Shown here: positions 774 to 27,115 of the stretch, in pieces | How the letters are laid out: each line of letters starts with the position of its first letter | Numbering within the stretch: position 1 is the stretch's first letter | Virus record (IMG/VR): IMGVR_UViG_3300044982_000031 | Span: 1 to 28,805 of that record | Length of the DNA: 28,805 nt | Direction: 5' to 3' (one strand) | Source of the DNA: a virus | The notes under the pieces: generated by a model | What the model was told of the DNA's origin: nothing | Seen by the model: only the letters and a program-made list of their open reading frames with translations | The model's database searches: none | Made by a program: the position numbers and the translations under genes

Positions 774-1820
774 TTAAGCTGGTATCAAAACTTTATCGCG
801 GAACAAGCTCTGATCAATGAGCGGAAATAGCAGGTTCATTGCCTTTCCCTTCATTTGGTCGCCGCTCCCAAATGTCCCGCTATCGAAACGCCCAACGGTT
901 TCGTTCGGGGCATTGCGCACTGTCCTGTCGTGATCCACGTAACGCGTCACGGATTGCAGCGCGGTCCAAACGTCATCCCGCTCTGAATTGCGCTCGCGTT
1001 GCGTGCGGCGATAGGAGGCGGCCAAATCTTGCGCGATGTTTTTAGTTCGCGTCGAAATGTCCGCCGCCTTCGCATCTGGCGCAACGCCTAGCAGTGTCGC
1101 AAAGAACGATTGAACGCTATCGCGCGTCATACTGGTCTGCGCCATCGCGTCTCCCATAGCCTTAAACTCGGCGAACGATTGCGCGATTTGGCCGAGCTCA
1201 CGCGCGACTTGACGCCCATCAAACCGCGTGTTGTGGCGCGTCTTAACCAGCGCCTTTGCGCTCATGTGCGCCGCTCGCAAAGTGTTCTGGCATACCGCGC
1301 GCGTCAGCGTTGCTTCGTTGCGCGTTGCTTGGCTTGCATCGAAGCTTGTCGACATGAGGAGGCGCGCAAGATGCCGGTCGCCAGCGATTTCTAACGAGCC
1401 GTTGAAACGAGCCGTGCACCATAGGCGTTCACCTGATCCGAGCACACCAGCGGCATCGATATGAAAACGGTCGTCAACTGTGATATAGTTCTCAAACCAG
1501 TCGAAAACGTCGGCGGGTTGCACTACCTGATAGCCGTCGCCAGCAATTCCCAGAATATGGCCGTTGTCTTGACGCGCCAAGAATTTTTTGTCGGTTTCGA
1601 CAAACCGATCTTCCGGCGCGATGTGATCAAAGGCCGGGCCGTTCAATGACGCAATGGCCGGAACCTTTTCCACGTGATAGGTGAGGCCCGCCGCCTTGAG
1701 CCATTGTTCGCGCGTTGCGCTTGCGTCTAATTCCTGCCCTAGCCGATGCCAGATTTCGGAGCGTTCGCCAGTGAACGCGAACGAATAGACGCCGTCTTTG
1801 TTTTCGATACCATGTGCCAT
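774..1820 (-). CDS. DUF932 phage/plasmid-like protein
   Basis: A 348-aa protein that matches the DUF932 / 'phage-plasmid-like protein' family by its opening MAHGIENKD and then WHRLGQELD (about residues 22-30), by 'GDGYQVVQPADVFDWFENYI' near residue 95, and by ARFNGSLEI followed by 'TSFDASQATRNEATLTRAVCQNTL' in the middle. Family members occur in phages and plasmids; the biochemical role is not firmly established. An upstream ATG at 1904 would add 28 residues, but that extension runs through the promoter and hairpin. The start at 1820 sits right after the GGAAGGCAAAACC leader and gives the family's usual N-terminus. It forms its own unit with promoter upstream and terminator downstream. Confidence 0.9.
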   Translation of the reverse strand: MAHGIENKDGVYSFAFTGERSEIWHRLGQELDASATREQWLKAAGLTYHVEKVPAIASLNGPAFDHIAPEDRFVETDKKFLARQDNGHILGIAGDGYQVVQPADVFDWFENYITVDDRFHIDAAGVLGSGERLWCTARFNGSLEIAGDRHLARLLMSTSFDASQATRNEATLTRAVCQNTLRAAHMSAKALVKTRHNTRFDGRQVARELGQIAQSFAEFKAMGDAMAQTSMTRDSVQSFFATLLGVAPDAKAADISTRTKNIAQDLAASYRRTQRERNSERDDVWTALQSVTRYVDHDRTVRNAPNETVGRFDSGTFGSGDQMKGKAMNLLFPLIDQSLFRDKVLIPA

Positions 1821-1904
1821 TTTGGTTTTGCCTTCCACATGAAAACAGCGTCGCGACATTGCGACGCTGTCAACTTCTGTAGCATGACACTTCGCCAGTG
1901 TCAA
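1821..1904 (-). promoter_or_regulatory. promoter and leader hairpin of the DUF932 gene
   Basis: On the minus strand, -35 TTGACA (1899-1904), a 17-bp spacer and -10 TACAGA (1876-1881) make a good sigma-70-type promoter. Just downstream is a second GTTGACA box, then a 10-bp perfect hairpin (ACAGCGTCGC 1845-1854 / GCGACGCTGT 1861-1870), then the GGAAGGCAAAACC leader and the ATG at 1820. The same order of elements precedes the 2186-2404 gene. Confidence 0.75.
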
Positions 1905-3787: not shown

Positions 3788-3922
3788 GGTTGCCTTCCTT
3801 TTCACGATGACGCCGTGACGGATGGCGATGACCAAGCGTTCATGCGGCGTCATGTCAATAGGTTGACACATTGCGCGAACGAGCGCAAGAGCAAGCTGTC
3901 AAACCCAACAGGAGGCAAACCA
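3788..3922. promoter_or_regulatory. divergent control region with TGTCAA-TAGG-TTGACA operator
   Basis: This gap separates the leftward and rightward blocks. TGTCAA-TAGG-TTGACA (3853-3868) is an inverted repeat near its middle. On the left-gene side, ATGACGCCG (3807-3815) and CGGCGTCAT (3845-3853) can pair as a 9-bp leader hairpin around 29 nt. On the right side, AGGAGGCAAACC precedes the ATG at 3923. I cannot pick a confident -35/-10 pair for either direction. Confidence 0.5.
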
Positions 3923-5416: not shown

Positions 5417-5567
5417 CGCGCTGCTGATCCATCTCCCGGCGCCCGGCGACTATTTCTCTCTCAACGACCGCCAGCTTTGGCTGCAAATGTGCGAGCTGTC
5501 GTTCCAACTCGTTTACAGCAACGAACCGGACCAGACCGACATAGGCGAGCATCCGCACGGTGGCTAA
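5358..5567 (+). CDS. small acidic protein upstream of terL
   Basis: A 69-aa acidic product (VNNHELDPLLDALLIHL ... FSLNDRQLWLQMCELSFQLVY) with two predicted helices. The start has a good site, AGGAGACGAAC-ATG. It overlaps the previous ORF by 59 bases and ends 8 bases inside terL. Candidate for a minimal terminase small subunit by location only; too short for a typical TerS with HTH. Confidence 0.55.
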   Translation: MPSKKIPEDVNNHELDPLLDALLIHLPAPGDYFSLNDRQLWLQMCELSFQLVYSNEPDQTDIGEHPHGG

Positions 5568-7359
5568 GCCGTCGATTCGGCGCGGCATTTACGACCTCCT
5601 GCAAGCGGTCGAGATCGACACCAAGGAGGAAGGGCGTTGCCACGTCGACCCTTGGCCGTCGCAACGGATGATCATTGACGCCGTCGCGAAGGGGCTCACC
5701 GAGGACGTTCACGAGTTCGCCATCCTGAAGTGTCGCCAAGTCGCCGCGACCACGACGTGCAGCGTGATCGAACTGTTTTGGGCGCTCGCCAATCCGGGCG
5801 TGCAGGGGGCAATCATCGCCGACCGCACCGACAACCTCGAGCGGTTGCGGCGCATCTTCGCCGCGCTCCTCGAGACTTTGCCGCCCGAATGGCGGTCGAG
5901 CGAACACCGGCTGATCCAGAACAACCGCAACGGGATGGCGTTCGCCAATCGCAGCGTCATCGATCTAATGGCGGCAGCGAGCAATCCCGATCTTGGCGCG
6001 TCGCGCGCCCTCAACATGTGCCACATGACCGAGTGCGGCCAATGGAAGTCGCTGGCGGGCGTCGAATCGCTCAAGGCCTCGCTGGCGCGCGTCAATCCGC
6101 ATCGGCTCTACATTTGGGAGTCAATCGCGAACGGATTCAATTGGTGGTACAATTTCTGCCAGCAAGCCAAGCAGGACCGCCACATGCGGTTCATTTTTTT
6201 GGGCTTTTGGAGCAATCCGACCTATTCGATCCCGAAGTCAGACCCGGACTACAAGGTCTATTGGGACGGGCGGCTTGACGACGACGAGCTGAAGCGCGCC
6301 CGCGACGTGCGCTCGCGCTACAACGTGATCGTCTCACCGGAGCAAGTGGCATGGTGGCGGCGGGAAAGCGAGTTTACGGCGGAGGATTATATGCTCCGTC
6401 ACTATCCGTGGAACGAGCGGGAATGCTTCATCGCTTCGGGCTCGTCTTTCTTCCCATCAGCGCGCACGTTGGAATTAGCCGAGACCCTAGCGGAGGGACC
6501 GCCCTATCAGGGGTACAAGTATCGCTTCGAGGATGCCTTCCTTGGCTCATCGATCGTGCAGACGACGAACAAAGACGAAGTGATGCTGCGCGTCTGGGAG
6601 CCACCGGAGGAAAAGGGGGTGTACGTCATCGGCGGCGACCCAAGCGGGGGCGGGGGCGGCGAAGCTAACGACCACGCGTTGGAAGTGTTCCGCTGCTACG
6701 CCGACCGGATCGTTCAAGTCGCCGAATTCCAATCGAACAAGCCGCTGACCTATCAATTCGCGTGGGTTCTCTCGCACCTCTGCGGAGCCTACAAGGATCA
6801 TCTCGCCAACATCGAAGTGTCGGGCGTCGGGGCCGCCGTCATCCCCGAAGTGCGCAACCTTCGCCAGCTCGCGCAGCGCGGGATCATCCAAGCCGAGCCG
6901 GGTCCAGACAGCATCCTCAACATGATCGGAGCCGTGCGCTGGTTTCTCTATCGCCGGGCCGACACGCTGGGCGGCGCGGGGAACGTGATCAATTGGAAGA
7001 CGAACCAAGACAACAAGCAACACGTGTACAGCGCCATGCGCGACAGCCTCATGCTGCGCACCATCGAGTTGCGCTCGATTCGGCTGGTCAAGCAATTGCA
7101 GGCGATTGTTGAAGACGACGGTTGGCTGGGCGCGGGGCCGGATACCGGCGAGAACGATGACCTCGTGAGCGCGGCGGTGCTGGCCCACCACACGTGGGTT
7201 GAATGGCGGCGGGCCGGGCTGATCGCCAGAAACTTGACGTGGGATAGCGTCAAGGGCGAGCGGCCTCCCGCCAACGCGGGGACGGTGCTATCGTTTGCCT
7301 TCAGCGAGCACATCCGGCGAATCAACCAGCAAGCGACCCGGCGCAGGGAGACGTTTTGA
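5560..7359 (+). CDS. terL: terminase large subunit
   Basis: A 599-aa protein that packages phage DNA into proheads using an ATPase motor and a headful or site-specific nuclease. Residues 32-36 (WPSQR) fit the adenine-binding Q motif. KCRQVAATTT (58-67) is a deviant Walker A of the kind 'ILK.RQ.G.ST'. NMCHMTECGQW (152-162) is Walker B with catalytic Glu159. The RNase H-like nuclease is marked by IGGDPSGGGG (Asp360) with Asp371, by NIEVSGVGAAV (Glu419), and by GENDDLVSAA (Asp533/534). Length is normal. The start is a GTG inside the end of the 5358 gene; its ribosome site is weak, which suggests coupling. The stop overlaps the next ATG (TGATG). Confidence 0.93.
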   Translation: MAKPSIRRGIYDLLQAVEIDTKEEGRCHVDPWPSQRMIIDAVAKGLTEDVHEFAILKCRQVAATTTCSVIELFWALANPGVQGAIIADRTDNLERLRRIFAALLETLPPEWRSSEHRLIQNNRNGMAFANRSVIDLMAAASNPDLGASRALNMCHMTECGQWKSLAGVESLKASLARVNPHRLYIWESIANGFNWWYNFCQQAKQDRHMRFIFLGFWSNPTYSIPKSDPDYKVYWDGRLDDDELKRARDVRSRYNVIVSPEQVAWWRRESEFTAEDYMLRHYPWNERECFIASGSSFFPSARTLELAETLAEGPPYQGYKYRFEDAFLGSSIVQTTNKDEVMLRVWEPPEEKGVYVIGGDPSGGGGGEANDHALEVFRCYADRIVQVAEFQSNKPLTYQFAWVLSHLCGAYKDHLANIEVSGVGAAVIPEVRNLRQLAQRGIIQAEPGPDSILNMIGAVRWFLYRRADTLGGAGNVINWKTNQDNKQHVYSAMRDSLMLRTIELRSIRLVKQLQAIVEDDGWLGAGPDTGENDDLVSAAVLAHHTWVEWRRAGLIARNLTWDSVKGERPPANAGTVLSFAFSEHIRRINQQATRRRETF

Positions 7360-8155: not shown

Positions 8156-8625
8156 TGCCGATCATGCGCTCGTACATGTGCCCGGAGTGCGGCCACCGGA
8201 TGGAGGTGACGCTTTCGGCCGAGCAATGGGACGCGCCGCCGCCGTCATGCGAGGCGTGCGACGCACGCGAAGTGCGGCAGGAGTTCAGGCCGCCCGCGAT
8301 CGGCGGCTCCGTCAGCATGAAAGCCCACCGAATCGCCGAAGACATAATGGCGAACGATTACAACGTGGCGAATGCAACCTTCGACAGCCGCGAGGGCGGC
8401 AGGCCGAAGGTCCGCTACAAAGACCAAAGCCCGAGCCAGCTCGCCAGCTCGTGGAACAGCGCGGTCGTCAACGAGGCGCTGAACACGGCAATCAAGATCG
8501 GCAAGCAGACGCGGTCGGAAAGCGGCGGCTTCGACGGGCTCGACATGCTCAAGGCGAACCTTGCCAATGGAAACCAACCGGACCTAATTGAGGCGAGCAG
8601 GCGGCGAGCCCTCAAGGTCTGGTAA
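8155..8625 (+). CDS. phage protein with N-terminal FmdB-like zinc ribbon
   Basis: A 156-aa product. Residues 8-38 carry two CxxC knuckles (MCPECGHRME and SCEACD), as in FmdB-type zinc ribbons. The rest is soluble and helical with 'MKAHRIAEDIMANDYNVANATF' and 'EALNTAIKIGKQTR'. Phage proteins of this layout sit next to the portal gene in related genomes; the role is unknown, perhaps a structural or packaging accessory. Starts in TGATG and its TAA overlaps the portal ATG by one base. Confidence 0.75.
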   Translation: MPIMRSYMCPECGHRMEVTLSAEQWDAPPPSCEACDAREVRQEFRPPAIGGSVSMKAHRIAEDIMANDYNVANATFDSREGGRPKVRYKDQSPSQLASSWNSAVVNEALNTAIKIGKQTRSESGGFDGLDMLKANLANGNQPDLIEASRRRALKVW

Positions 8626-10361
8626 TGGCGCTTTCGATCCCCAAAAAGTCGGAATTCCTGACCGTCTGGATCAAAGAGATGATCGATGAGTGTATGGCGT
8701 CCTCCGAAGAACGGGGGATGATCTACACCCGCGCCGCTCAATACTACTACATGGGCAGTACGGACAATCGGGCCGCGCTTTACAACAAAATCAAGCCGTT
8801 CGTGGATAAGCTGGCCGGGTTCCTCATGCAGCCGGTCGATGTCCGCTTCCAGCTCGTCTACGACAGCGGCGAAGACGACGAAACCGTGCTCGAACGCTCG
8901 CAGCTTGTCGCCGAGAAGCTGAGCGCCGACTTTCGCCAGACCGACGCCGACATCGCGTTCGCCGAAGCGGTGATTTGGGGCATGGTCAACGGTTGCCAGA
9001 TTTTGAAGGTGCTGCCGGACGGCGACAGCGGCACGTTCAAGACAGCGCCCGTGCATCCGCAGAATTTCGGCGTGCTATCCGAGACGACCCTCAATCTCGA
9101 TGAGCAAGAGGCGTTCTGTCACGTCAGCTACCCGACCAAGTCGCGGCTGCGCACGATGCTCATGGATCATCCGCGCTACGAAGAAATCATGAAACAGATC
9201 GGCGACGAGCCGGGACCGAAGCGCGACGAGGAAGAACCAACCTACTTTCACCAAATGGTTGTAGGAGGGCTGCAACCGTTGGGGGACGTTGGCGATGCGC
9301 CGTCATCCGCTGCCGGTATCGTCAACGTCTTTCCGATTCCGACCCCTTGGCGGCCGAATCGCCGCTTCGCGCCGACCGTCAAGCTGTGCGAGGTCTGGAT
9401 CAAGGACCGGGACCGCGAAGAAGACTGGACGACCATCCAGTGCATCTATGGGGCCGATCCGATCATCATCGAAGGCGACAACACCCGGCGCAATCTGTCG
9501 CGCGTCCCCGGCAAGTCGAGCTTCGTCAAGGTGCAGCCGCAGCCGACGCCCGGCTATTTTTGGGGCCGCTCGATCATCGCCGACGTGCAGATGCTTCAGG
9601 ACATGCTGAACAAGCGGATGCGCGACATCAAAGTAATGTGGGACCGCAATGTCAACGCTCCACAGGTCTTCTCCGGGTTCACCAGCGTCACCGAGGAACA
9701 ATATTTTAAGATTGTCAACGAGGGAGGTTTCATTAACGATCCAAACCCTAACGCAAAAGCGTCGAAACTACTGGACCCGCCGCCGGAAAACTACTTGGAA
9801 GAACTCGAATTTATTTTCAAATTGTTTGATGAAGCAAGCGGCTTTAGCCCAATCATGTCCGGACAGGGAGAGCCGGGTGTCCGCGCTGGCGTCCACGCTC
9901 AAACTCTGGTTAGAACTTCGTCCCCCCACCTCATCAAGCAAGCCTCGACGCTCGAGCGGCAGCTCGCCGATTGTGGGTGGCTGGCGCTCCGCATCATGCA
10001 AGCCATGGACGCCCTCATTTACACCACAGCCGATAGCAAAACCGAATTCCTCCTCTCGCAGCTTCCGGGCAATTTTCAAGTCCAAGTCGACAGCCACTCG
10101 GCGTCGCCAGCCTTCGCGGAGGACAATCGTCAAGTCGCTATTGCGCTCGCTAGAGCGGGCGCGATCGACAGCGAAGACCTGATCCACATGCTCCATCCGC
10201 CCGGCGCTGAGCTGTTGCTGGCGCGCTTGAAACAGCGCCAGAAAGCCCAAGCGGCGACCGCGAAAGAGGAAAAACAGGAGGAGCTGGTCAAGGGATTGCT
10301 GGGAATCGGCGGCGGCAGTCGGAGGCAGGCTTCCAAGCCCCGTGGACAAACCGCCCACTGA
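8625..10361 (+). CDS. portal protein
   Basis: A 578-aa protein that would form the dodecameric ring at the capsid vertex through which DNA enters and leaves. Evidence is size, place after terL, and portal-like features: an early Tyr-rich helix (IYTRAAQYYYMGSTDNRAALYNKIKPFVDKLAGFL), a beta-rich wing (residues about 80-240), 'YFWGRSIIADVQMLQDMLNKRMRD' near 305-330 as the crown/stem helix lead-in, and a Gln/Lys-rich C-terminal coil ending in RRQASKPRG. No Walker or enzyme motif. It is the last gene of a coupled run; a 120-base structured gap follows. Confidence 0.85.
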   Translation: MALSIPKKSEFLTVWIKEMIDECMASSEERGMIYTRAAQYYYMGSTDNRAALYNKIKPFVDKLAGFLMQPVDVRFQLVYDSGEDDETVLERSQLVAEKLSADFRQTDADIAFAEAVIWGMVNGCQILKVLPDGDSGTFKTAPVHPQNFGVLSETTLNLDEQEAFCHVSYPTKSRLRTMLMDHPRYEEIMKQIGDEPGPKRDEEEPTYFHQMVVGGLQPLGDVGDAPSSAAGIVNVFPIPTPWRPNRRFAPTVKLCEVWIKDRDREEDWTTIQCIYGADPIIIEGDNTRRNLSRVPGKSSFVKVQPQPTPGYFWGRSIIADVQMLQDMLNKRMRDIKVMWDRNVNAPQVFSGFTSVTEEQYFKIVNEGGFINDPNPNAKASKLLDPPPENYLEELEFIFKLFDEASGFSPIMSGQGEPGVRAGVHAQTLVRTSSPHLIKQASTLERQLADCGWLALRIMQAMDALIYTTADSKTEFLLSQLPGNFQVQVDSHSASPAFAEDNRQVAIALARAGAIDSEDLIHMLHPPGAELLLARLKQRQKAQAATAKEEKQEELVKGLLGIGGGSRRQASKPRGQTAH

Positions 10362-12353: not shown

Positions 12354-13370
12354 ATGCCCCTGCTCGGCGCTGGCATCATTCCGGCCGGTCCTATCGGTCT
12401 GGAATTGCAAGCGACCGTTCGTCGCGTCTTCGCGCAAATGGTCGTCATTCTTATCTACAAGCAGAATCCGCTTTTGGCGCTTTTGCTTAGGAATGCAATT
12501 CGGGCAAGCGGCGGCGTCTCGCCCTACACCCAGCCCGTGCAGACGGGGCAGTATGTCGCCTCAAGCTGGATAGGCCCGGCGGGTCAGTTCAACTTGCCGC
12601 AGGACGTGGCCGCCACCGTCAACGCCGAATTCAATATGTGTTGTCTGGCGACGCCGGTCAGCTCGCTTGGCCTCGAACAGCTCGTCACGCAGGACGCGAT
12701 CGCCGTCGCCTCGCGCCTCATGCTGAAGCTCAACGACCTGAAGAACAGCTCGTTGCAGGCGCTCACAACCGCGCTGTTCGGCCCGCCTGTGACCAACGTG
12801 TTGCAGATGTTCAGCCTCAACGACGCCTATGGCAACGCCGTCACGGCGCCCGTGTTCGGCGGACTCTCGCGCGTCACCTATCCCGATTGGCAGGGGCTCG
12901 TTGTGCCCACTGCGGGCGCAGTCCTCACTCGCGCAGCCTTCATTCCGCTACTCTTGCGGGCGGTGAACAACGCAGGCGGCGAGGCGCTCGACTTCGTCGT
13001 CACGTCGGTACAAGACTGGACGACGCTCTTGACCGACTTCATGGCCGTCGAGAGGTACAACAATGATCCCAGCTCGCGATGGGGCAAGGATGATCCTGTC
13101 AACAGCGGCTTTAGGGGGCTCTTGCTGGGCGACACGCCGATCTTTTTCGACCTCAATTGCCCGGTCGGAACAGCCTACGGTTTCAATTCCAAGTACATCA
13201 CCTTGGTCGTTCACGAGGACGCGAATTTTGCATGGACCGGGTGGTACTCCACCATCCCACAAGGGCAGATTGCGAGCGTCGGGCTCAGCCTGACCGCGCT
13301 CAATCTGGTCTGTAGCAAGCCGTCGACCGGGATGATCGTCACCGGCATCACCGGGGGAGCGCCGTTTTGA
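12354..13370 (+). CDS. major capsid protein
   Basis: A 338-aa protein. Its core 'SSLQALTTALFG' ... 'NVLQMFSLNDAYGN' ... 'VFGGLSRVTYPDWQGLV' ... 'LDFVVTSVQDWTTLLTDFM' matches the pattern 'Nl.gL.dai...yGGisR.ty..W......PD.ivts...y..' of HK97-fold coat proteins. The C-terminal part holds 'GLLLGDTPIFFDLNCPVGTA' and 'WYSTIPQGQIASVGLSLTALNLVCSKP', as expected for the axial-domain strands. It lacks an evident protease-cleaved delta domain. RBS GAGGGAG. The stop TGA is overlapped by a TTG start of the next gene. Confidence 0.85.
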   Translation: MPLLGAGIIPAGPIGLELQATVRRVFAQMVVILIYKQNPLLALLLRNAIRASGGVSPYTQPVQTGQYVASSWIGPAGQFNLPQDVAATVNAEFNMCCLATPVSSLGLEQLVTQDAIAVASRLMLKLNDLKNSSLQALTTALFGPPVTNVLQMFSLNDAYGNAVTAPVFGGLSRVTYPDWQGLVVPTAGAVLTRAAFIPLLLRAVNNAGGEALDFVVTSVQDWTTLLTDFMAVERYNNDPSSRWGKDDPVNSGFRGLLLGDTPIFFDLNCPVGTAYGFNSKYITLVVHEDANFAWTGWYSTIPQGQIASVGLSLTALNLVCSKPSTGMIVTGITGGAPF

Positions 13371-21048: not shown

Positions 21049-21432
21049 GTGCCGTGGATGGTCGACGTGGGCGACCGCCGCTACGGCGCGCACTACGACC
21101 GGCTGGCGACCGAGCAATGGGTGAGAAATCTGGTCCTCAAAGGACCGATGATCTTCCTGCCAATCAGGACAGATGACGCCTTCCTGATCGCCATGCTGTC
21201 GACCACGCCTTGGATGCCCTCCGTCCCCGAATGCAACGTCGTCATGGTGTGCGCCGACGATGGCGCAATGTGGCAGGCGGTCACGCTTCTGCGCGCCTCA
21301 ATCGAGTGGGCGAGGCGGCGGAAATGCTCCCTTTGGCGGGTCAGCTCCGAGACGGATTACGATTTAACCCCGATCGCGCTAAAACTGGGGGCGCGCGAAC
21401 TGAACGTCCGGCACGTTTTGAGGCTCGCATGA
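21049..21432 (+). CDS. putative GNAT-like acyltransferase domain protein
   Basis: From GTG 21049 this is 127 aa. 'VPWMVDVGDRRYGAHYDRLA' (first helix) and 'NVVMVCADDGAMWQAVTLLR' then 'SIEWARRRKCSLWRVSSETDYDL' resemble GNAT acetyltransferases (D..w...lg.....; then the pyrophosphate-binding turn and helix; then beta5). The consensus Q/RxxGxG/A is not intact, so activity is doubtful. The N-terminal LILESD is encoded just before any usual start; a CTG at 21031 overlapping the previous TGA (CTGA) would include it. The true start is therefore uncertain. Confidence 0.5.
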   Translation: MPWMVDVGDRRYGAHYDRLATEQWVRNLVLKGPMIFLPIRTDDAFLIAMLSTTPWMPSVPECNVVMVCADDGAMWQAVTLLRASIEWARRRKCSLWRVSSETDYDLTPIALKLGARELNVRHVLRLA

Positions 21433-22129: not shown

Positions 22130-23766
22130 GCCAAGGCGATTCGGTCACGGGCGGAACCGGCACGACCGACACGAGCGGCCTCGATCAGACCTTTTCCGAC
22201 GCCAGCCTTGGCGATCAGTTCATGGGCGGCAGCGGCGACATCTTCGGCGGCGACGCCACAGCCGCCGGCGGCTTCAATTCGTTCAACAGCATCGCCAACG
22301 CCCTCGCTGGCGGCGGGGCAGGGGCGAGCCCGCAAGCCGCGCAGGCGGCCTCGATGTCCACGCCCCCGAGCGCGACCGGCGGCGACCCGACCGGATCGTC
22401 CAGCGGCACGCAATCCTCGACCACGCCCGGACAAAGCCAGAACCAAGGACAGCCGCAGCAACAGCAGCAGCAGCAGGCATACGCCCCGCCCGACGCGGTC
22501 CAAGAGTTGAACAAGCTGTTAGAGAAAATTCAGGGCAAGCCGCCCGGCCCGACCGGCCTCACCCCGAAGCCCGGCGAAACCGGCCCGCAGTCGCCGCTAG
22601 TCCAAGGGCGGCTTCCGAATCAGGGCGGCATAACCAATCTCCCGAATGTCGCTCCGGGGGAAACCGGGGCGCAGTCGCCGCAGTACACGCTTCCGGGTGT
22701 GGCGAAGGGCGAAACCGGCCCGCAGTCGCAGCCGCCGGTGCGTGGGATGCCGCCTCCGAGGAACGAGCCCGGCGAGGTTGCGCCCGGCGGTCCCGCCCTT
22801 CCGACCCGCAAGCCGACGCCGGAAGCCGAGCAACCGACAGAAACCGAGCAACCGGCGGAACCCCCGCCGCCGCAAGCGCCGTCCCGCATAATGCAGGACA
22901 TCAGCGGCGCGTCGACCGGCGTCCCGACCGCGCTCGCCGAGCTGGCGCAGATTGCGATGCCGCTGATTGCCATGGCGCTGTCAGGCGGCGGCGGGAGGCG
23001 CGGCCGACACGGCTTCGGCGGCTTCCGAGGCGGGCGAGGCGGCTTCCGAGGCGGCTTCCATCCGCCCGGCCGAGGCTTGTGGCCCTATCACCATCCGCAA
23101 ATGGGCTGGCACTTCCACCACGGGCATCCGGGCAACGGCTGGCTTCCCCTGAACCCGCAGCAAGCCGACCAGATGGGAATGACCGGCAGCGGTCAGCAAG
23201 GCGGGCCGGGCGACCCCAACGCGCCAGACCCCAACCGGCCGCCGAAAGAGACAGGCGCAACCCCCGCGCCGCCCGACCGGACGCCGACCAGCGGCGCAAT
23301 CCCCGGCGTCGGTGCAAAGGAGGTCAACGATTATACCCGGCAGGCAGCGTCAAAGTACGGCATAGATCCGGACATTGCCTCGAGATTTTTGGGACAAGAA
23401 AGCAGTTATGGACAGGCGAGACGCCCCGGCGACAAAGGGACCAGCTTCGGCCCGTTCCAGCTCCACTTCGCTCCCGATGGCAAAGCGATGGGCGATGACT
23501 TCTACCGCGACACCGGGCTCGATCCGCGCGATCCGCGCACGTGGAAGCAACAGATCGACTACGCCATGATGCGGGCGTCTCAGGATGGCTGGTCGCCGGG
23601 CTGGACGACCACGATGAAGAAGCTGGGACTGAACCAGTGGAGCGGGATCACCACCAACCCCAAATTCGCCCGGCTTCAGCGGTCGAACCAGCAACCAGCC
23701 ACGCAAATCAACATCACGCCCGACATGCTGCCGCAGTCGAGCCAAGCAATGGTGGCGGGCCAATAG
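22126..23766 (+). CDS. large Pro/Gly-rich virion protein with C-terminal transglycosylase-like domain
   Basis: A 546-aa product. Residues 1-145 are Gly/Ser/Thr/Gln-rich. Residues 150-200 contain three GETG(P/A)QS repeats (at 150, 178 and 195). Residues about 287-313 are an RGG-type stretch (GRRGRHGFGGFRGGRGGFRG), followed by a His-rich segment (YHHPQMGWHFHHGHPGNGW). Residues 396-500 look like a lytic transglycosylase (SLT/lysozyme-like) domain: 'YGIDPDIASRFLGQESSYGQA', with catalytic Glu425 in GQESSYG, then 'SFGPFQLHF'. Such virion-associated enzymes cut peptidoglycan locally during DNA entry. The full combination is unusual. Confidence 0.72.
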   Translation: MSQGDSVTGGTGTTDTSGLDQTFSDASLGDQFMGGSGDIFGGDATAAGGFNSFNSIANALAGGGAGASPQAAQAASMSTPPSATGGDPTGSSSGTQSSTTPGQSQNQGQPQQQQQQQAYAPPDAVQELNKLLEKIQGKPPGPTGLTPKPGETGPQSPLVQGRLPNQGGITNLPNVAPGETGAQSPQYTLPGVAKGETGPQSQPPVRGMPPPRNEPGEVAPGGPALPTRKPTPEAEQPTETEQPAEPPPPQAPSRIMQDISGASTGVPTALAELAQIAMPLIAMALSGGGGRRGRHGFGGFRGGRGGFRGGFHPPGRGLWPYHHPQMGWHFHHGHPGNGWLPLNPQQADQMGMTGSGQQGGPGDPNAPDPNRPPKETGATPAPPDRTPTSGAIPGVGAKEVNDYTRQAASKYGIDPDIASRFLGQESSYGQARRPGDKGTSFGPFQLHFAPDGKAMGDDFYRDTGLDPRDPRTWKQQIDYAMMRASQDGWSPGWTTTMKKLGLNQWSGITTNPKFARLQRSNQQPATQINITPDMLPQSSQAMVAGQ

Positions 23767-25728: not shown

Positions 25729-26567
25729 AATCGTTCACCGTCACGATCGGCGGCGAGACGCGGACGATCCCCGGTCCAGACGACGCCACGCAGGAACAGG
25801 CGCAGGCTGAAGCCGAACGGCAGATGCAGGCGAGCCAGAGTGCCGATCTGCAAAAAGACCTGTCCGGGCCGGGTCATTTGGTCGCCCAAGCCGCTCAAGG
25901 CGGGGCTGAGCTTTTCGGCGGCCCGGCGCAATTGTTCGGCTTCAAGCCCGGCCCGCTCTTTCAGCAAGCCGAAAACGCTCCCACCACGACCGGCGACAAG
26001 CTCGCCCGCCTCGCTGGCGCGGCGCTCCCCCTTGGCCCGCTTGGCGCAGCCGCCACGACCAAGGCGACACCGGCGACGATCGCGCGCGGCGCTGGCGGCC
26101 GTATGAGGAAGATCCCCGGTATTCCACCTTTGCCCGGCGCAGCTTTGGTTCCTCCCGCAGTCGGGGCGGTCGAAGGCGCGTCCGCGCCCGCAGACAGCCA
26201 GAGCCAGCGAGCTATCAATACCGGGCTTGGCGCAATCGGCGGGAAGTTCGGCAGCATGGCGCCGGAAACCGCCAGCGCCCTCGACCACTTGGCCGGGACC
26301 GCCCTTGGCGGCTTAATGGGCCACGGGGCAGGCGGCGGCTTTAGCGGGCTGGCGTCGCTTTGGGGCGCGCGGCTTGGCAACCAGATGAGCCACTACGCGC
26401 CCGTCGTGAGCTACGCCCGGCAGCTCCTCTCGCGCTTCCCGCCCTCTGTCGTGGCCCGGATGCTGAGCGACGCCGGATACCCCGTCTCGAAAATTCTCGG
26501 TCAAGAGTTCGATTCCATGTCAAGGACACCCGATGGCGACGACCAGCGACCCGCTGAAAATCAATGA
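25725..26567 (+). CDS. putative internal virion or membrane-interacting protein
   Basis: A 280-aa product. It opens with a small beta domain, KSFTVTIGGETRTIPGPDD, then an Ala/Gln-rich helix. Residues about 95-200 are Gly/Ala/Pro-rich, hydrophobic segments without charge (LARLAGAALPLGPLGAAATT). The start at 25725 is coupled to the previous gene by ATGA. Amphipathic/hydrophobic helices are frequent in ejection proteins, so an internal virion role is plausible. Family unknown. The 3' end overlaps the next gene by 35 bases. Confidence 0.6.
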   Translation: MKSFTVTIGGETRTIPGPDDATQEQAQAEAERQMQASQSADLQKDLSGPGHLVAQAAQGGAELFGGPAQLFGFKPGPLFQQAENAPTTTGDKLARLAGAALPLGPLGAAATTKATPATIARGAGGRMRKIPGIPPLPGAALVPPAVGAVEGASAPADSQSQRAINTGLGAIGGKFGSMAPETASALDHLAGTALGGLMGHGAGGGFSGLASLWGARLGNQMSHYAPVVSYARQLLSRFPPSVVARMLSDAGYPVSKILGQEFDSMSRTPDGDDQRPAENQ

Positions 26568-26859
26568 ACGGCTGTATAAGCAGATCGGCAAACTGCTTGA
26601 CGACCTCGAAAGCGCCGACCGCGACGAAGTCATGACGACGCCGCAGCGCATTCAAGCCCTGATCGCGGTGGGCCGGATTTTGACGATCTTCGCGTCCCTC
26701 AAAAAGGCCGATTACGATTATGGCAATGCAGGATCAGCCGTCCGGAAATACGCCACCGCGTTCGCGACCCCCAATGCAGCTCGTGGCGGAAAAAGAGCTT
26801 CCCGATCCTCCAACATTGTCGAGTTTGATCGCGACGGCGGCGAAGACGACGGAGACTAA
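26533..26859 (+). CDS. small hypothetical protein
   Basis: A 108-aa product. N-terminal helices 'LKINERLYKQIGKLLDDLE' and 'PQRIQALIAVGRILTIFASLKK' suggest a helical hairpin, and the tail is acidic (FDRDGGEDDGD). Start ATG 26533 lies inside the previous gene (overlap 35 bases). The final 140 bases overlap the 26720 gene in another frame. Function unknown. Confidence 0.6.
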   Translation: MATTSDPLKINERLYKQIGKLLDDLESADRDEVMTTPQRIQALIAVGRILTIFASLKKADYDYGNAGSAVRKYATAFATPNAARGGKRASRSSNIVEFDRDGGEDDGD

Positions 26860-27115
26860 GCCGCCTGTTTCACGTGAAACAGGGGAATATATCCATCGGT
26901 CGGCGTGGAAAGCGGGCGTCATGGGCGCCCTAAACGTCGTCGCGGTCGTCCTTGCGGTCAGACTCGTGCTCTTGGTCGCGGTGATCGGGGCGCTCTACCT
27001 CGCCAAAATCGCGCTCGACGCCCCGGCGACGGTTCAGACGCCTGCCATGATCATGCTGGCGGTCTATTGCGCGACCGTCGTGATCCCGATGGTCTGGCTG
27101 TCGAGCCGAAGATAA
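26720..27115 (+). CDS. two-helix membrane protein (holin candidate)
   Basis: A 131-aa product. Residues 1-65 are soluble and Pro-rich; two membrane helices lie at about 66-95 (AGVMGALNVVAVVLAVRLVLL) and 107-127 (AMIMLAVYCATVVIPMVWL), followed by a short basic end (SSRR). Two hydrophobic segments with a charged end fit a holin or spanin-like lysis protein, but no endolysin is adjacent in this window, so the function stays open. It overlaps the upstream gene by 140 bases. The parS sequence at 26866-26881 lies in its coding region (codons for about residues 49-54). ATG 26720 has a weak AAGG site; a later start is possible. Confidence 0.6.
   Translation: MAMQDQPSGNTPPRSRPPMQLVAEKELPDPPTLSSLIATAAKTTETKPPVSRETGEYIHRSAWKAGVMGALNVVAVVLAVRLVLLVAVIGALYLAKIALDAPATVQTPAMIMLAVYCATVVIPMVWLSSRR
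26866..26881. other. parS: perfect consensus parS site (ParB binding)
   Basis: TGTTTCACGTGAAACA is a perfect palindrome and equals the universal chromosomal parS consensus that ParB/Spo0J loads on. One more base pair each side is also symmetric: CCTGTTTCACGTGAAACAGG (26864-26883). It sits after the stop of the 26533 gene and inside the 26720 gene. A 16-base exact match by chance in 28.8 kb is very improbable. ParB nucleates at such sites and spreads by CTP-dependent clamping. Binding here is inferred from the sequence. Confidence 0.9.

Follow-up and report, generated by a model that had tools for sequence, protein, structure and literature searches.

Why should a tailed phage carry a perfect copy of a bacterial centromere site within a late gene, and for which protein is it meant? 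ParB is a CTP-dependent sliding clamp, and the ParB-parS pair is a near-universal bacterial centromere. The site considered here is found in a stretch of viral DNA of 28,805 bp (hereafter the window), which represents a partial genome since its IMG/VR virus record is linear. The 16-mer TGTTTCACGTGAAACA at 26866-26881 (no strand assigned) is an exact match to the consensus chromosomal parS. It forms the core of the palindrome CCTGTTTCACGTGAAACAGG, which is perfect across 20 bp at 26864-26883 (again no strand) and is the longest perfect palindrome of the window. When the whole window was scanned, no other match within three mismatches of the consensus was found, and merely 4 of 100 dinucleotide shuffles of the window gave at least one site at this level. 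The first-pass annotation had described a textbook chromosomal parS, palindromic to 20 bp, present as the only copy and overlapping a coding region. All four points were borne out, the last of them by the V-S-R-E-T codons of the open reading frame at 26720-27115. A second palindrome, GACGCGTCGCGACGCGTC, perfect over 18 bp, was noted at 525-542 within a small leftward open reading frame (483-677).

The window is marked as a tailed phage by its terminase large subunit gene (5560-7359, plus strand; phrog_2, E 4.8e-18). The genes for the portal protein (8625-10361, plus strand; weak match to portal families) and the major capsid protein (12354-13370, plus strand; phrog_9953) served as queries for collecting relatives. 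The rightward structural block is closed by a 131-aa small membrane-protein gene, here called TMp (26720-27115, plus strand), whose membrane label comes from two hydrophobic stretches read from the translation. TMp matched no family in Pfam or PHROG and, as a query, no record in INPHARED, and its homologues are present across the sampled phage family. The parS site lies just ahead of the hydrophobic region, in a linker that is hypervariable among relatives in both sequence and length. An upstream 108-aa gene (26533-26859, plus strand), whose homologue adjoins TMp in most relatives, runs in another frame into the start of TMp and stops 7 bp ahead of parS. A DUF932 protein (774-1904, minus strand) is encoded on one side of the structural block and a PDDEXK nuclease-like phage protein (PF24579; 27533-28048, minus strand) on the other. 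In G011, a near-complete relative, early, recombination, replication and tail-fibre genes add about 13 kb to what the window shows; the gene content of G011 includes YqaJ, ERF, a VapE-like domain protein, a GH19 lysin and HTH proteins.

Relatives were collected from IMG/VR, where the matches listed included eight loci with TMp, 76 with the portal and 80 capsid loci. Sites were counted at up to two mismatches to the consensus TGTTTCACGTGAAACA, which the window site matches exactly. At this limit, 13 of the 45 records in the first set and 4 of the 50 in the second had a site, a single one each, compared with no record and one record, respectively, for a reversed control pattern. The statistics were based on 49 genomes including the window (1.75 Mb), drawn from the longer relatives. 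A site was found in 17 of these at up to two mismatches, in 14 at up to one and in 7 as the exact 16-mer, and no genome had more than one copy. The same search with 150 palindromes whose half-sites had been shuffled at unchanged composition gave a mean of 0.13 genomes (maximum 2) at up to two mismatches and none at one or zero mismatches. A base-composition model predicted 0.0001 exact sites and 0.15 sites within two mismatches for the 49 genomes. The motif was first noticed in the window, so the window is not counted as evidence and the other genomes are; once the window and the relatives obtained by way of TMp are set aside, 14 of 41 genomes had the site, 6 of them exactly.

The site is thus above chance and kept in relatives, and the codon and flank comparisons described below agree with this. 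Its absence within two mismatches was recorded in 32 of the 49 genomes, including most relatives of about 40 kb. Since most of the near-complete relatives lack it, the site is optional and not essential to the family. A chance origin was rejected on the basis of the shuffled-palindrome controls in the family and of three control palindromes searched in INPHARED. We also rejected the idea that site-less relatives share some other palindrome, as their long palindromes were genome-specific with no common motif visible. One genome, G045 (L122), was excluded from the statistics because it had been found via the motif itself and is weakly related; this 30-kb IMG/VR contig carries one exact parS at 2290-2305.

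The location of the site differs among the relatives. Eight sites are in the TMp linker (the window, G001, G004, G011, G014, G023, G051 and G052), three are just 3' of the capsid gene (G015, G032 and G017), three fall between the g15895-g20259 homologues or at their end (G041, G074 and G085), and G025, G038 and G033 have theirs at three other places; the placements outside TMp include the left of the terminase and the far right end. In a tree built from terminase, portal and capsid, these locations were spread over several separate lineages, and G014, with its site in TMp, nested within the group that has the site after the capsid gene. Therefore, members of the family have acquired the site, lost it and moved it to new places, with the count staying at one. 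The parS consensus is reported as t/cGTTt/cCACGTGAAAca in Caulobacter and TGTTNCACGTGAAACA in Corynebacterium (PMC7022226). The one-mismatch variants of G001, G032, G051 and G074 differ at positions where published chromosomal consensuses vary. An altered centre, CATGTG, was found in G015, G023 and G025, and two mismatches in G004, G017 and G033; the variants of these two kinds may fail to bind ParB.

Within TMp, parS is read as GTT TCA CGT GAA ACA, encoding V-S-R-E-T, and all eight TMp sites share this one reading frame. The codons used are rare ones. Given the genomes' own codon usage, the probability of V-S-R-E-T in these exact codons is about 1e-5 to 3e-5, and site-less relatives that have S-R-E at the same place use GC-rich codons, such as TCG CGC GAA. 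No difference in the 16 bp was seen among the window, G011, G014 and G052, whereas their 45-nt flanks, compared without gaps, show 22-76% identity. Judged from these comparisons of sequence, the conservation of the site acts on the DNA and not on the protein. Protein constraint on V-S-R-E-T was rejected in view of the rare codons, the hypervariable linker and the sites outside TMp. The membrane-protein gene is probably a convenient place, with a linker that tolerates five arbitrary residues. According to the first-pass annotation, a function of the site would be refuted if relatives kept the protein and lost the palindrome through synonymous changes and if, in addition, host ParB did not bind. 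Most relatives do keep the protein without the palindrome, but nine other genomes have the site elsewhere, and therefore the tie to TMp is incidental and the site itself is not. A decayed copy of the site was seen at the homologous linker position of TMp in G049 (21133-21148, oriented), and G020 has a parS-like palindrome with three mismatches directly past the TMp gene (23080-23095, oriented; L261/L262).

The first-pass annotation had also proposed to search the complete genome for parA, parB and more parS copies. A phage-encoded ParABS system or a phage-plasmid would have the ParB and ParA genes on the same replicon. No ParB (PF02195, ParB_N) was detected in any of 46 family records, the window itself being partial, and the same search matched the control genomes. 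ParA (PF01656) gave nothing above the cut-off in these records and three weak, short matches below it. The tyrosine integrase (PF00589) that could mark an integrating temperate phage was likewise found in none of the 46. A ParB encoded by the phage was accordingly rejected as the binder, and since no ParB was detectable in the family, host ParB is the likely ligand. Regarding the identity of that host, an alignment of the capsid against bacterial genome contigs gave one remote match (32% over 67 residues), in a MAG labelled Proteobacteria, which carries no information on the host, and in INPHARED the capsid and terminase had remote relatives alone.

The site is also found in phages well outside this family. 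INPHARED was searched with a 30-nt query in which an 18-bp palindrome stood between Ns, a match being at least 16 exact bases. By this measure, 302 of 50,697 phage records matched. The exact 16-mer is present in no more than this number, since some matches are shifted by one base (Kittykat, TGTTTCACGTGAAACT), and the records include many near-duplicates, so that they are not 302 independent events. They span phages of Listeria, Microbacterium, Arthrobacter, Gordonia, Bacillus, Lactobacillus, Enterococcus and Ruegeria, as well as Microviridae and others, and three control palindromes of equal composition matched no INPHARED record. The reversed motif was absent from all 18 INPHARED site records checked, and ParB was above the cut-off in 1 of these 18. 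Among IMG/VR contigs picked by the exact motif, many of which are short, ParB was above the cut-off in 1 of 50. In the literature searched, which covered few subscription journals and preprints, no report surveying parS sites in phages was found.

Several of the individual records deserve description. The 16-mer occurs in microviruses, which have ssDNA genomes of about 5 kb (HQ264138 at 3904-3919, PQ006178, PQ006099 and OR149000), and the 'bajarodino' viruses have about 5 to 6 copies, with places counted on both strands. Listeria accounts for 87 matching records; large Listeria phages (Pecentumvirus) carry the 16-mer, and in LP-125 a single site at up to one mismatch (30546-30561) was found and no ParB domain. 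Bacillus phage vB_BcoS-136 (NC_071049) has four exact parS sites in about 1 kb (29256-30261). Roseobacter phage DSS3P8 (KT870145) has three exact sites, close to the record ends (841, 141133 and 143177).

Taken together, these data suggest that the site is very probably selected and meant for host ParB, and that borrowing this protein is probably why the phage family retains it. Recruitment of host ParB, as the first-pass annotation had proposed, is thus the best reading of sites that are far above the controls in a family with no detectable ParB, and segregation, localisation or interference, all named in that annotation, may follow from it. We infer binding, a role in infection and a benefit to the phage, and we presume, with less confidence but still as the probable case, that the main effect is the positioning or partitioning of phage DNA. 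In such a mechanism, the one selected parS would load the chromosomal ParB clamp of the host onto the phage DNA, and the loaded DNA would for a while imitate the origin region of the host, being gathered and positioned like it. Perhaps host ParA would also segregate it, or it would be passed on to SMC. The phage DNA might thus stay with the host chromosome in cells that are slow-growing, dividing or in a carrier state.

An unlikely alternative is a local benefit, in which loaded ParB represses or insulates late transcription over about 2 kb, recruits SMC for compaction before packaging, or shields the DNA. In Caulobacter, the spread of ParB around a single parS is limited to about 2 kb (PMC5815017), and the TMp sites stand where the rightward late block ends, ahead of a leftward gene block. 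However, the site moves among unrelated places, namely after the capsid, near g20259, to the left of the terminase and at the far right end, which speaks against control of any one fixed gene. The phage sites could instead act as decoys that titrate host ParB and disturb the segregation of the host chromosome or cell division. Replicating phage DNA would offer many copies of the site, and SGI1 turns its parS mimics on its IncC helper (PMC10954446). We regard this as improbable, since a single site per genome is weak for the purpose and titration should favour arrays, of which there are none in the family.

The first-pass annotation had further raised a phage-plasmid lifestyle, in which the site partitions a low-copy plasmid prophage via host ParAB. 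A parS is able to recruit host ParAB in trans, and G011 shows a weak CI-type HTH match. This version gained no positive support, as ParA above the cut-off, ParB and tyrosine integrase are all absent from the 46 records and many near-complete relatives have no site, and it now seems very improbable. Even smaller is the chance that some phage or host regulator with no relation to ParB uses the palindrome as its operator. Small HTH proteins are encoded by the window and by G011, but the site has no fixed position relative to promoters, and phages of Firmicutes, Actinobacteria and Alphaproteobacteria that are not related to one another share the identical 16-mer, a spread that fits a near-universal protein such as ParB alone. 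A coding coincidence, with V-S-R-E-T conserved and the palindrome as its by-product, or a neutral relic spread by recombination, would agree with the common frame of the eight TMp sites and with the many site-less relatives, but is strongly disfavoured by the hypervariable linker, a codon choice that is a 1e-5 event per genome, the sites outside TMp and the empty controls.

Recruitment of host ParB therefore stays the preferred reading of the site. If phages that lack partition genes recurrently keep the centromere tag of the host, host ParB would be a general host factor for phages. A defined site of 16 bp would open the placement and inheritance of phage DNA, in cells that are not lysed at once, to direct test. 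Our tentative proposal, on which we would hold back from a firm opinion, is that one or a few copies of the host centromere site are a widespread and repeatedly evolved phage strategy beyond spore-formers. In this view, unrelated phages that infect Firmicutes, Actinobacteria and Proteobacteria, and also small ssDNA microviruses, may use recruited host ParB to have their genomes placed or passed on together with the host chromosome when infection is slow or deferred. As part of this proposal, the family of the window would display the gain, loss and relocation of the site under way.

Bacillus phage phi29 is among the closest known systems. A passage in PMC9437464, citing Meijer et al. 2005, describes entrapment of the phi29 chromosome in the spore, mediated by host Spo0J (ParB). 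This phage has four TGTTTCACGTGGAACA sites, each with one mismatch and mostly in genes, where 0.14 matches would be expected even at three mismatches. It resembles the phage of the window in being a tailed phage with a chromosomal-type parS, and TGTTTCACGTGGAACA is the variant found in the relative G001. B103, which belongs to Salasmaviridae as phi29 does, has one exact site and one site of the TGTTTCACGTGGAACA variant, and in both phages most sites are inside genes, as in the window. The family of the window, too, has parS-type sites on a phage without detectable ParB, as the phi29 type of use implies. On the other hand, phi29 carries more than one site and infects a sporulating host, whereas the window family has one site per genome, shows no sign of sporulation and belongs to an unrelated lineage. 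The principle is thus given by phi29 in a spore-former, and the family of the window together with the signal from 302 INPHARED records suggests a wider reach.

A comparable borrowing is known from SGI1, whose parS-like elements hijack the ParABS system of IncC plasmids (PMC10954446). There, too, a mobile element without partition proteins of its own mimics the parS of another replicon and borrows its ParB, but the donor is a plasmid and the copies are two, while the phage of the window carries the chromosomal consensus of the host. Phage-borne ParABS systems, as in P1 and actinobacteriophages (PMC7157519, PMC12704722), also place a partition site on the phage genome; they bring their own ParA and ParB with their own site, and none of these proteins is detectable in the family of the window. 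The chromosomal ParABS systems of Caulobacter, Hyphomonas and Bacillus (PMC7022226) share the identical 16-bp parS consensus, but their sites cluster near oriC, in contrast to the lone site in a phage late gene. A paper in Nature (2026) mentioning parS alongside phage was set aside as a precedent, because parS is an engineered label there. The borrowing of a foreign ParB by a phage or mobile element is therefore already known, and the novelty here lies in a site that occurs singly and relocates, within an unrelated phage family for which no sporulating host is known, and in a broad statistical signal.
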